Origin: Calditrichales bacterium MX18-03
GTDB taxonomy: Bacteria; Bacillota; Clostridia; Lutisporales; Lutisporaceae
Assembly (NCBI GenBank): GCA_021083345.1
Contig: JAJGRE010000001.1
Span: 682,001-746,000, forward strand
Direction: 5' to 3'
Length of the DNA: 64,000 bases
The notes under the pieces are model-generated. The model saw only the letters and a list, made by a program, of their open reading frames with translations. It made no database searches and was not told where the DNA came from. Below, piece after piece: positions 13,065-44,397 of the stretch. The position numbers and the translations under genes are program-made. Positions within the stretch are counted from its first letter, which is position 1; each line of letters begins with the position of its first letter.

Positions 13065-14423
13065 TTATTTATTTTCCTTTAATGCTTGATAGGCCTTCAG
13101 CATAATGGCACACTCGATCCGCTTCTGCTGCAGCTTGCATTCCAGCTCATAAGGCTTCTTAAGGTCCCCGTTGAAAACGGCGGCATTGGCCTGACAGCCT
13201 CCGCTGCAATAGAACCTTGCCCAGCAGCTGCGGCATTTTTCCTTATGATAAACGGTGTTTTCCGAAAAGGCCTTCTGCATTTCCTGATTTGTGACACCGG
13301 ACCGGATATCCCCCATCCGGTATTCGGCTTTCCCCACAAACTGGTGGCAGGGATACAGCTCGCCGTCCGGCGTTACTGCAAAATACTCCACACCGGAGCC
13401 GCAAGAGGATACCCTTTTATAGACGCAAGGTCCTCCATCCAGATCCATGAGGAAATGATAGAACCGGAAGCCTTTGCCTGCTTCCTGATACTCTATGTAT
13501 TTGCCGGCAAGCCGCTCGTACTCTGCGTAGATCCGGTCAAGATGCTCTTCTTTCAAAGCATAGCTCCGCTCCTGTTCTGCAACCACCGGCTCTATGGAGA
13601 TCTCCTTGAAACCTTCCTCCGCCAGCAGCAGTACATCCTCACAGAAGTCCAGGTTGTTGGCTGTAAAGGTGCCTCTGATATAATAGCTCTTGGCGCCCCG
13701 GCTTTCCACAAAGGTCTTTATTTTGGGCAGGATTGCGTCGAAGGTTCCTGCGCCGTCAACAAATTTTCTCATTTTATCATTGACGGATTTTCTGCCGTCT
13801 ATACTGACAACGACGTTGTCCAGGCTTTGGTCGGCAAACTGCAAAAACGCTTCGTCCATCAAGGTTCCGTTGGTGGTCATGGTAAACCCGATCCGCTTGC
13901 CGAAAGCCTTCTCCTTCTCTCTGGCATATGCCACCGTTTCTCTGACAACATCAAAGTTCAGCAGAGGTTCTCCGCCGAAAAAGTCAACTTCCAAACGCTT
14001 TCTGCTGCCGGAAGTGGCCAGCAGGAAATCGATAGCCTCTTTAGCAACCTCCAGCGGCATCAGCTTGCGGCCCCCGTGATAATTGCCGGTGGATGCGAAG
14101 CAGTAACCGCAGCGTATATTGCAGTCATGGGCGATATTCAGACAGAGGGCCTTGGTAAAAACAGCCCTTTTTTCACTCAGTACCTTCTCTTCGTAGGAAT
14201 CGGCAGCATTCAGCAGCCCTTCGGCATCGAGAGCCTTAAGCTCGTCCAGCGCTTCCAGAATTGCCGGCACAGCGTATTTCCCCTTCAAAGCTTCAACCAA
14301 TGCGCTATCATCGCTAATACCCTGTTCCAATATGTCCCAGGTAAGTTCGTCCACTATATGTATAGCACCGCTGGCAACATCAATGACAATTTTCATCCCG
14401 TTCAATTCGTATCTATGCAGCAT
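13065..14423 (-). CDS. Radical SAM/SPASM thioether maturase of the SCIFF type
   Basis: The protein (452 residues from ATG 14423, behind GGGAGG; an upstream TTG at 14435 is less likely) closely resembles the maturase that builds the thioether bond in the six-cysteine SCIFF peptide of Clostridia. It starts MLHRYELNGMKIVIDVASG (precursor-recognition-like domain). The radical SAM cluster motif is CNIRCGYC near residue 105, followed by DFFGGEPLLNF. The C-terminal SPASM region has CGSGVEYFAVTPDGELYPC and CRSCWARFYCSGGC for two more Fe-S clusters. No Cys-rich SCIFF precursor is found beside it, which is unusual. It heads a likely operon with pduL and deoC. Confidence 0.88.
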   Translation of the reverse strand: MLHRYELNGMKIVIDVASGAIHIVDELTWDILEQGISDDSALVEALKGKYAVPAILEALDELKALDAEGLLNAADSYEEKVLSEKRAVFTKALCLNIAHDCNIRCGYCFASTGNYHGGRKLMPLEVAKEAIDFLLATSGSRKRLEVDFFGGEPLLNFDVVRETVAYAREKEKAFGKRIGFTMTTNGTLMDEAFLQFADQSLDNVVVSIDGRKSVNDKMRKFVDGAGTFDAILPKIKTFVESRGAKSYYIRGTFTANNLDFCEDVLLLAEEGFKEISIEPVVAEQERSYALKEEHLDRIYAEYERLAGKYIEYQEAGKGFRFYHFLMDLDGGPCVYKRVSSCGSGVEYFAVTPDGELYPCHQFVGKAEYRMGDIRSGVTNQEMQKAFSENTVYHKEKCRSCWARFYCSGGCQANAAVFNGDLKKPYELECKLQQKRIECAIMLKAYQALKENK

Positions 14424-14488
14424 TTTGCCTCCCAAAAAACTTCCTGATTATACCCCTTTTAGTCTTTGTTAACAGTATGTCACTGTTT

Positions 14489-14517
14489 ATTCTATATTAA
14501 AATTTCCGCAGTGTCAA
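14489..14517 (-). promoter_or_regulatory. Promoter of the SCIFF maturase-pduL-deoC operon
   Basis: TTGACA (14512-14517) and TAGAAT (14489-14494) on the minus strand, 17 bases apart. It lies between the terminator of the DUF1858 gene and the maturase start, so the maturase is transcribed separately from the gene upstream. Confidence 0.75.
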
Positions 14518-14535
14518 ATGCAGAATAAAAGCGAA

Positions 14536-14556
14536 AACCACCCGAATCGGGTGGTT
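14536..14556 (-). terminator. Terminator of the DUF1858 selenoprotein gene
   Basis: An almost perfect GC-rich hairpin (arms AACCACCC and GGGTGGTT around a five-base loop) 10 nt past the stop codon, followed on the minus strand by TTCGCTTTT. Confidence 0.85.
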
Positions 14557-14565
14557 GCGCCATTC

Positions 14566-14760
14566 TTATGACTCTGTGTTTTCATTCAGCTTTTCTACCA
14601 ACTCGTCGGGATTCAATCTGTATCTTAGAGCAGCCTGCTCTATCGTCATATACAACGCTCCGCCTCAGCCGAAGCATTTGATCCCGTTGTTCCTGAAGAC
14701 ACTCTCAAGCTGGGGATATTTATAAAGGATATCATCAATTACCATGCCCTTGTTTATCAT
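14566..14760 (-). CDS. DUF1858-domain redox protein with predicted selenocysteine (CxxU)
   Basis: Minus strand, ATG 14760 (or 14763), seven bases after AAGGGG; the stop is TAA at 14566-14568. The reading has one in-frame TGA at 14665-14667. Read through as U it gives 64 residues that fit the DUF1858 family from end to end: an MINKGMVIDDILYKYPQ start, the active-site loop KCFGUGG, then MTIEQAALRYRLNPDELVE. In ordinary family members this loop is CxxC; here TGA stands exactly at the second Cys, residue 32. The protein is intact on both sides, and has its own consensus promoter, an operator-like palindrome and a terminator. A SECIS-like hairpin follows the TGA. A pseudogene or sequencing error is the alternative, but the position makes selenocysteine far more likely. 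Confidence 0.8.
14627..14641 (-). promoter_or_regulatory. SECIS-like hairpin downstream of the in-frame UGA
   Basis: The transcript can fold AGAGCA-GGC-UGCUCU, a six-pair stem with a G-containing apical loop, starting 24 nt after the UGA codon. An outer UGUAU/AUACA pairing (about 14621-14655) could extend it through an internal loop. Bacterial SECIS elements lie within the coding region shortly after UGA and carry a conserved G in a small apical loop, so size and distance fit. Binding by SelB is inferred, not shown. Confidence 0.55.
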
Positions 14761-14804
14761 CATATCACCCCTTTTTATTATATGTACCTTTATGCACTTT
14801 AATA

Positions 14805-14835: not shown

Positions 14836-14864
14836 ATTATAGTTTTTTTTGAAAGTTTTGTCAA
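14836..14864 (-). promoter_or_regulatory. Consensus promoter of the selenoprotein gene
   Basis: TTGACA (14859-14864) and TATAAT (14836-14841) on the minus strand with a 17-base spacer. It gives a leader of about 68 nt that contains the TACCC/GGGTA palindrome. The gene can therefore be expressed alone, apart from the flavoprotein gene upstream. Confidence 0.85.
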
Positions 14865-14879
14865 TAGCTATCGTGATGA

Positions 14880-15740
14880 TTATTCCAGAGATTTTCCATC
14901 CAGGTACTTTACGGCACTCAATGCTGCTACGCTTCCTTCCCCTACTGCCTTGGCTATTTGATAGGGTTTTCCCGCACAGTCCCCACAGGCAAATACTCCA
15001 GGTATGCTGGTCCCCATGCTGCGGTTTACCCGGATGGAGCCCTCTTCCATCTCAAGACCTTCTATCAATTGACTGACCGGAATGACATTCCGAATGATAA
15101 ACACTGCATTGACCTGCAGCTCGGACTGCTCGGCAACCAGCTTGTTCACCTTACTGCCGTCTCCTTCTATGGACAGGACCCGTTCCCGGAGCAGCTTTAC
15201 GCCCTCCTTCAACTTGGGTTGTGCAGCGTAGGCAGGCAGATAATAGACCGCTGCGCATATTTCGGATAGGAAATTTGCTTCCTCTTCTCCCTCTTCATTC
15301 TCCGAAATAATGGCGATGGGTTTCCCCTTGTACAGGGGGCCATCGCAAGTTGCGCAATACCCGATTCCCTTTCCCAGGTATTCCCGCTCTCCTTTCAGGT
15401 AATTGGCCTTGCCATGTCCGGTAGCGAGGATGATGCTCCTGGCATCGTAGTATTCACTGCCTGCATTGACAGCAAAGTAGTCCCCCATGTCAAGGATGTT
15501 GTATGCTTTTCCCTGATTGATCTCAATGCCCATCCCTTCAGCATGCCGTTTGAAGCTTTCCAGCAGATCTTTGCCGCTGATCTCCTTGAAACCCAGATAA
15601 TTATCCACCTGCGGCGCTTTCATCAAGCCGGTGACCTTTTCATTGCCCCCAAGAACCAAAAAAGATTTATTCCTGATTTTCAGGTTCAAGGCTGCCGATA
15701 ACGCAGCCGGCCCCCCGCCAATCACTATAACATCCAACAT
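14880..15740 (-). CDS. Flavin thioredoxin reductase-like protein, probably ferredoxin-dependent type
   Basis: The 286-residue protein has the thioredoxin reductase layout: FAD loop GGGPAALSAA at residues 8-17, redox-active CATC at 129-132 followed by DG, and the C-terminal FAD motif GVFACGDCAG. The NADPH motifs are lost: where GGGNTA-like residues belong (about 142-150) it has IAIISENEEG, and the HRRxxxR segment reads YYLPAYAAQ. The same losses mark the ferredoxin-dependent flavin thioredoxin reductases (FFTR) of Clostridia, so ferredoxin rather than NADPH is the likely electron donor. It lies directly upstream of the DUF1858 selenoprotein, a possible redox partner. The start is supported by GGAGG nine bases upstream. 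Confidence 0.75.
   Translation of the reverse strand: MLDVIVIGGGPAALSAALNLKIRNKSFLVLGGNEKVTGLMKAPQVDNYLGFKEISGKDLLESFKRHAEGMGIEINQGKAYNILDMGDYFAVNAGSEYYDARSIILATGHGKANYLKGEREYLGKGIGYCATCDGPLYKGKPIAIISENEEGEEEANFLSEICAAVYYLPAYAAQPKLKEGVKLLRERVLSIEGDGSKVNKLVAEQSELQVNAVFIIRNVIPVSQLIEGLEMEEGSIRVNRSMGTSIPGVFACGDCAGKPYQIAKAVGEGSVAALSAVKYLDGKSLE

Positions 15741-43114: not shown

Positions 43115-44397
<1,283 letters not shown>

Follow-up and report, generated by a model that had tools for sequence, protein, structure and literature searches.

Introduction

A selenocysteine (Sec) form of the DUF1858 domain (PF08984) is already on record. Two reviews tabulate DUF1858 with the motif CxxU as a predicted selenoprotein family (WP_012065717.1; tables of PMC9312934 and PMC13188914), and the Sec form of DUF1858 is therefore not new. 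The preliminary description of the locus studied here had taken DUF1858 to be a family usually known in its Cys form; Cys forms do exist, but the Sec form had been tabulated. The tabulated protein shares the domain and the Sec in CxxU with the protein encoded in the window (the whole 64,000-nucleotide stretch of DNA analysed here). The table rows themselves give CxxU only, with no subfamily, neighbour or CxU form, and the string 'DUF' does not occur in the main text of two papers cited for the DUF1858 selenoprotein (PMC2398784, PMC5029168).

Other described systems can be set beside the window protein. The hybrid cluster protein-associated redox disulfide domain (TIGR03980, Cys form; PDB 2k53, 2k5e) shares its fold and the position of the redox pair, with Cys in place of Sec; in the TIGR03980 Cys forms seen here, the second Cys mostly stands before P, A, M or S, not GG. 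The ScdA_N domain of RIC/YtfE/ScdA has a like fold by TM-score (0.74–0.75, with low Foldseek probability). Passages of PMC9268430 describe the motif DfCCgG in this domain of RIC proteins and report that C31, the motif's second Cys, is required for YtfE to oligomerise. That second Cys aligns with the Sec of the window protein and is followed by GG; unlike the window protein, which scores under the family cut-off, ScdA_N proteins have an adjacent Cys pair and a fused di-iron hemerythrin-like domain. Listed selenoproteins that carry CxxU on other folds (selenoprotein W-like, AhpD-like, GrdA) have the redox motif in common with the window protein, and none of these families matched it in Pfam and NCBIfam scans.

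Results

A DUF1858 reading frame crossed by a single UGA

The host genome comprises 4.69 Mb in 15 contigs. The gene and its expression signals are as follows.

14566–14760, minus strand: predicted DUF1858/TIGR03980 selenoprotein gene, 64 amino acids, motif CFGU, stop TAA at 14568–14566
14665–14667, minus strand: in-frame TGA, read as selenocysteine, residue 32; the aligned residue is Cys in homologues L182 and L186
14836–14864, minus strand: sigma-70-type promoter TTGACA-17-TATAAT, 12/12 consensus, from a sequence scan
14764–14771, minus strand: ribosome-binding site GGGGTGAT, from the sequence, with GGGGTG at 14771–14766
14536–14556, minus strand: intrinsic terminator, a 9-bp terminator-like hairpin with a T-rich tail, from a sequence scan

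The preliminary description had placed a gene at 14566–14760 without naming a strand. The gene was confirmed there and is now assigned to the minus strand, with its start at ATG 14760 (alternative ATG at 14763); on the plus strand of the interval the frame is not open. With the TGA read as U, the translation up to the terminal stop is MINKGMVIDDILYKYPQLESVFRNNGIKCFGUGGALYMTIEQAALRYRLNPDELVEKLNENTES. Gene finders would discard this gene because of the stop codon in its middle, and the ORF list of the window contains no frame of at least 60 amino acids across the gene interval.

As had been proposed, the frame from 14760 to 14566 encodes a DUF1858 protein that is intact except for one TGA and that fits the family on either side of it. 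When the TGA was taken as a residue, the translation passed the cut-offs of TIGR03980 (58.4 bits, cut-off 44.95, NCBIfam scan) and of PF08984 DUF1858 (49 bits, cut-off 32.2, Pfam scan), with the whole domain covered in both, and the redox CxxC/CxxU site of the family is present as CFGU. TIGR03980 was the sole NCBIfam model above cut-off for the two proteins of the window gene's own orthologous group (group B, see below) that were scanned. The consensus promoter, ribosome site and terminator suggested earlier were all located, at 14864–14836, 14771–14766 and 14556–14536, respectively. Promoters of 12/12 consensus, with spacings of 17–18 nt, also precede 7 of the other 17 orthologues. Because the promoter is a perfect consensus, the selenoprotein gene is probably well expressed.

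Two further regulatory elements were seen in the window. A second terminator-like hairpin (14504–14525, minus strand) and an overlapping 11/12 promoter-like site (14489–14517, minus strand) lie ahead of the downstream ScfB gene, and a T-box leader at 44182–44388 (minus strand, 101.7 bits) is the sole Rfam match above the gathering score.

The UGA is conserved and aligns with a Cys of homologues

The TIGR03980 profile gave 70 matches in the 22 genomes of the order, which belong to one family, Lutisporaceae. These were sorted into three paralogous groups, A, B and C, and six weak rows (20.5–22.9 bits) were left ungrouped. Group B, the window gene's own, was found in 18 of 22 genomes with the motif CFGUGG, and two named strains, Lutispora thermophila DSM 19022 and L. 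saccharofermentans m25, are among the relatives that carry the gene. All 18/18 orthologues from independent genomes (the window's included) have TGA at this codon, and it is therefore neither chance nor the sequencing error that had been considered earlier. Nor was the frame damaged elsewhere in any of the 18 relatives, another concern raised at the outset: each match contains exactly one stop, the TGA. The stop-interrupted gene is almost certainly a conserved selenoprotein gene in most genomes of Lutisporaceae.

TGA-containing relatives, for which a search in sister species had been advised, occur outside the family as well. Among 391 genomes of the class outside Lutisporaceae, 7 further TGA copies were found (CFGUGG or CYGUGG), 6 from one clostridial family and 1 from another; six lower-scoring class matches are Cys forms of another subtype, CFGCMAARFEN. 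The class sequences compared were those of these 13 non-Lutisporaceae loci (7 Sec, 6 Cys); weaker class matches were left out. In the phylum (398 genomes, E 1e-13), the 38 non-own matches included 20 with TGA, of which 17 have the motif CxGUGG; 35 of the 38 were fetched, and three Cys rows were left out. The identification of the TGA (codon 14667–14665) with the second Cys of the CxxC site, K-C-F-G-U-G-G, held up in the alignment with Cys-containing DUF1858 proteins: Cys occupies the Sec codon in homologues with CIGCGGALFESVEQGA and CLGCGGALFESVEQGA (L182, L186). Both Cys versions sit in a genome, G537, that also carries a Sec copy. A conserved in-frame UGA aligned with a Cys of homologues, the pattern by which bacterial selenoproteins are recognised, was thus found. 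Judged by these alignments, CxGUGG DUF1858 is a Sec-dominated subfamily, and DUF1858, a domain of unknown function, would have a selenium-dependent branch.

In an unrooted tree of 109 rows, a supported branch (99/96) has 44 Sec rows to one side: every member of groups B and C, together with the 7 outgroup copies and G437. The tree needs 9 Sec/Cys changes, at least 7 of which are forced by supported branches. It was built on few columns with bootstrap values unsettled and with the near-copies L109–L111 left out; what was taken from it was the clustering of Sec and Cys rows and the at least 7 forced changes, with no rooting. Group A contains both forms (28 members, 20 Cys and 8 Sec). Its members in G002 (Sec, L037) and G004 (Cys, L026) are identical over the 58-residue domain except at the Sec/Cys site; this pair is a predicted very recent Sec/Cys exchange.

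If the TGA were a real stop, the locus would be a pseudogene or encode a 31-residue peptide, with the downstream part a relic. TGA is a normal stop here, ending 2 of 8 neighbouring genes checked. Against a real stop stand the intact frame and the TGA codon in 18/18 orthologues, the covarying hairpin that keeps its distance from the UGA (see below), and the codons past the UGA, which look to be under purifying selection. The ratio pN/pS was 0.182 upstream of the UGA and 0.278 downstream (153 pairs), and a low value after the UGA is as expected if the downstream part is translated. We regard a real stop as extremely improbable. Synonymous diversity was itself lower after the UGA (pS 0.608 vs 0.876 before), which would fit an RNA structure in this part of the message.

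The genome encodes the selenocysteine machinery

A search for selA, selB, selC (tRNA-Sec) and selD, named in the preliminary description as the first check, recovered all four from the genome. selD, selA and selB form one cluster (396, 634 and 372 bits, all above cut-off). The tRNA-Sec scored 70.0 bits (Rfam gathering score 47), and ARAGORN called the same tRNA as tRNA-SeC with anticodon tca. ARAGORN classed a second match above the Rfam score, at 49.1 bits, as a tRNA-Ser, and the tRNA-Sec call therefore rests on both programs. The selD gene itself contains a UGA at the active site (...MTSSSGUAAKIG..., GUAAK; L017:9956-11005, minus strand), which gives the genome a standard selenoprotein in addition to the DUF1858 one. 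Among class genomes with a TGA copy, tRNA-Sec scored at least 65 bits in 6/7, the seventh, G128, reaching only a doubtful 47.5 bits; the same threshold was reached in 1/3 class genomes with Cys copies.

Decoding of the UGA as another amino acid, by Trp insertion or near-cognate readthrough, would also carry translation through the gene. The UGA lies exactly at the redox Cys, with Cys the alternative in homologues; a SECIS candidate and the Sec machinery are present, and no Trp occurs at the site in the sequences compared (groups, class and phylum rows shown). The chance of such decoding is accordingly minimal in our estimate. Selenocysteine is almost certainly inserted at the UGA of the DUF1858 gene, as judged from sequence comparison.

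A covarying hairpin lies at a fixed distance from the UGA

The candidate insertion element lies within the coding sequence.

14626–14642, minus strand: bSECIS hairpin, 7-bp stem, GGC loop (14635–14633), loop starting 29 nt after the UGA

The hairpin, UAGAGCA-GGC-UGCUCUA, spans 17 bases. The legend to Fig. 2 of PMC13188914 gives a bSECIS model with a loop of 3–9 nt, a stem of 4–16 bp, G in the first two loop bases, a spacing of 16–37 nt and a minimum free energy of at most -7.5, and the hairpin lies within every limit given there (GGC, 7 bp, 29 nt, -7.8 kcal/mol). The folding energy of the 25-nt piece, -7.8 kcal/mol, corresponds to z -2.29. For the whole 56 nt after the UGA the energy was unremarkable (-9.9, z -0.15, with 82/200 shuffles as good); by itself this energy is uninformative, and the SECIS assignment was decided by position and covariation.

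Covariation was scored on 40 sequences (alignment A2: 18/18 of group B, 16/18 of group C without L072 and L073, the latter of which carries an extra codon, and 6/7 of the outgroup without L106). Pairing was found in 93.2% of cells, and two-sided changes occurred in 6/7 pairs (38 cells), with 0/500 shuffles as high. Slid controls, in which the partner was shifted by 1–3 columns, gave at most 44.3% paired and 8 cells. Two smaller alignments covered 12/18 group B proteins (A1) and 11/18 group C proteins (A3). In the phylum rows (A5: the window and 17/20 phylum TGA rows), which were selected for a +29 loop, pairing extends to 99.2% of cells and two-sided changes to 13 cells, with 0/500 shuffles as high; counted by pair, two-sided changes in these rows alone affect 2/7, which was not above shuffles (263/500 as high). 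A5 leans towards structure because it omits L177, L196 and L205, which have a loop other than a GG triloop at +29.

A stem of at least 6 bp capped by a GG triloop at +29 is present in 15/18 group B, 17/18 group C and 17/20 phylum Sec genes. Among Cys homologues, a +29 GG-triloop stem of at least 5 bp was found in 0/15, with 4 bp reached in 2/15. The background frequency of a +29-type GG triloop with at least 6 bp was 1.8e-4 over 127,840 positions of the window; under a loose definition of SECIS-like hairpins, 13.9% of positions carry one with 6 bp. The stem has a mismatch in 3/18 orthologues (L051, L053, L063). In group A Sec genes, a 7-bp GGA-loop hairpin at +23 is the best candidate in 3/8, and the other 5 are without a clear candidate. 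The hairpin located 29 nt past the UGA would hold SelB, which would bring Sec-tRNA-Sec to the UGA.

The same 7-bp GGA-loop hairpin is kept in 2/20 group A Cys genes (L019, L027).

A predicted small helical protein with a Cys/Sec pair

The structure was modelled with AlphaFold, with Cys for Sec, from 16 sequences (alignment A4: the window, 8 other group B proteins, 3 of one outgroup family and 4 phylum rows). The model has five helices at a mean pLDDT of 93.1, and residue 32 opens the helix 32–37. Among the Foldseek matches listed (50 of 155), the best was 2k53 (TM 0.88, rmsd 1.4, probability 1.00, E 9.9e-3), whose helical fold the modelled protein shares. The model is all-helical, and no thioredoxin-fold match was among the 50 of 155 matches listed. 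As pictured from sequence, comparison and model, the product would be a 64-residue all-helical DUF1858 protein with Cys29 in a loop and Sec32 opening a helix, and these two residues may form the redox pair. A redox role of the CxxU motif is probable; the DUF1858 selenoprotein would most likely work as a small redox carrier or disulfide reductase, in which Cys29 and Sec32 would cycle between thiol/selenolate and selenenylsulfide.

The CxxU might instead serve to repair Fe-S or iron centres, or in NO chemistry or the handling of metal or selenium, as in ScdA_N, and not in a general thiol relay. To the alignment of the Sec with YtfE C31 can be added matches to ScdA chains in the PDB (E 1.8e-5, 1.3e-4), in which the Sec aligns with the second Cys of the pair, and, among the Foldseek matches listed, the YtfE N-terminal domain (TM 0.74–0.75, though at a probability of 0.38–0.41 and E 4.4). 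DUF1858 genes have also been mentioned beside nitrate respiration and in a denitrification regulon (PMC6282519, PMC6710368). The ScdA_N (PF04405) match in the Pfam scan is weak, however (22.4 bits, below the cut-off of 32.5), and no RIC, Fe-S repair or NO gene was recognised among the recurring neighbours, most of which were named by eye. We consider such a role a substantial possibility, though clearly the less probable one.

An FFTR-like flavoprotein gene as neighbour

Two neighbouring genes recur with the selenoprotein gene in the family.

14880–15740, minus strand: thioredoxin-reductase-like flavoprotein, candidate electron donor, adjacent in 17/18 loci
13065–14435, minus strand: ScfB-type radical SAM/SPASM SCIFF maturase, association conserved in the family

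The flavoprotein resembles ferredoxin-dependent flavin thioredoxin reductase (FFTR). Its closest PDB entries are 6gna, 6gnd and 6gnc (269–279 bits; 6gna 279), followed by 4zn0 at 142; 6gnc and 6gnd are ferredoxin-dependent flavin thioredoxin reductase 2 of C. acetobutylicum (CaFFTR2), as named in PMC8469568. The cyanobacterial FFTR 5j60 scored only 117 bits, below several ordinary thioredoxin reductases. The neighbour keeps its redox CxxC as CATC. Of the NAD(P)H motifs GxGxxA and HRRxxxR (PMC10880999), its sequence has no HRRxxxR-like match and three GxGxxA-like matches, two of them interpreted as FAD sites and the third as overlapping the CxxC.

The FFTR-like gene lies on the same strand, about 19–199 nt upstream, in 17/18 loci (measured between the domain match and the end of the tblastn alignment), with a gap of 19–23 nt in 5 genomes (G020, G021, G016, G017, G004). 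It was not beside the gene in G014, nor at 27 loci outside Lutisporaceae (22 Sec, 5 Cys). At 8/18 loci, the window's included, a 12/12 promoter lies between the two genes, which argues for separate transcription at those loci. The adjacency in 17/18 loci suggests a ferredoxin-to-selenol relay, and the FFTR-like neighbour is tentatively put forward as the reductant. Ferredoxin would feed the FFTR-like flavoenzyme, which would re-reduce the DUF1858 selenoprotein; electrons would then pass to a target, perhaps an oxidised or nitrosylated thiol or an iron-centre protein, to which a cousin of the domain, the N-terminal domain of RIC/YtfE/ScdA, might point. Taken as a whole, the proposal of a DUF1858 selenoprotein that acts as a small redox carrier or disulfide reductase, re-reduced by the FFTR-like enzyme, is likely in our judgement. 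That Lutisporaceae run a thioredoxin-free path, from ferredoxin through the FFTR-like flavoenzyme to a DUF1858 selenoredoxin, is conceivable but somewhat doubtful. If the proposal is true, a widespread selenium-dependent class of redox carriers is being discarded by gene finders. The Sec/Cys pairs and the adjacent FFTR-like gene offer an experimental handle on DUF1858 function.

The position of the ScfB gene raises another reading, namely that the selenoprotein is a substrate or partner of this downstream peptide maturase. A RiPP precursor often sits just upstream of its maturase gene. ScfB is downstream in 17/18 loci, with the selenoprotein gene about 91–407 nt upstream of it, and in the 15 genomes where both ScfB and the SCIFF peptide gene were found, the latter is off-contig (14) or about 670 kb away (the window genome). 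Yet the SCIFF peptide is present in 17/22 genomes, so that ScfB, found once per genome in 17/22, has its usual substrate, and no ScfB was beside the gene at 27 loci outside Lutisporaceae, where no common partner gene was found. A partnership with ScfB is very unlikely on these grounds, and the presence of the SCIFF peptide elsewhere in the genome weakened the idea that ScfB is an orphan maturase acting on the selenoprotein. We retain the redox carrier as the preferred reading.

In the window genome the SCIFF peptide gene lies at L212:1498-1683 (plus strand), about 670 kb from ScfB, and the two genes do not share a contig in any of the 14 relatives that yielded both. PduL is downstream in 17/18 loci, the exception being cut by a contig end, and is beside the gene at 6/6 loci of one other family. 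At the 27 loci outside Lutisporaceae, an IMP-dehydrogenase-like gene occurs at 7 and a small radical SAM gene at 7 (named by eye). The recurrence of IMP-dehydrogenase-like, radical SAM and PduL genes was read as local synteny. A copper ATPase family turned out to be irrelevant.

Other predicted selenocysteine geometries in the domain

Group C was found in 18/22 genomes, with TGA in 18/18 and the motif C-G-U-G-G, that is CxU and not CxxU. The three group C proteins scanned matched no NCBIfam model above cut-off and scored 33.3–37.7 bits with Pfam DUF1858 (cut-off 32.2). A CxU variant of this group, as predicted from the genome sequences, accompanies the CxxU gene in the same genome. If the assignments are true, one tiny non-thioredoxin fold took up Sec in three geometries (CxxU, CxU and UxxC).

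In the window genome, a second predicted DUF1858 selenoprotein gene lies at G000:C7:58069-58269 (plus strand; L073), with the motif GCGUGG (CxU). It is the lone group C member without the +29 GG-loop hairpin, having an extra codon and a loop at +32 with 5 bp.

In L196 (G753:C100:23216-23401, plus strand), the Sec is at the first site (GULGC, UxxC), accompanied by a weak 4-bp SECIS candidate only; three close tree relatives of L196 have CxxC.
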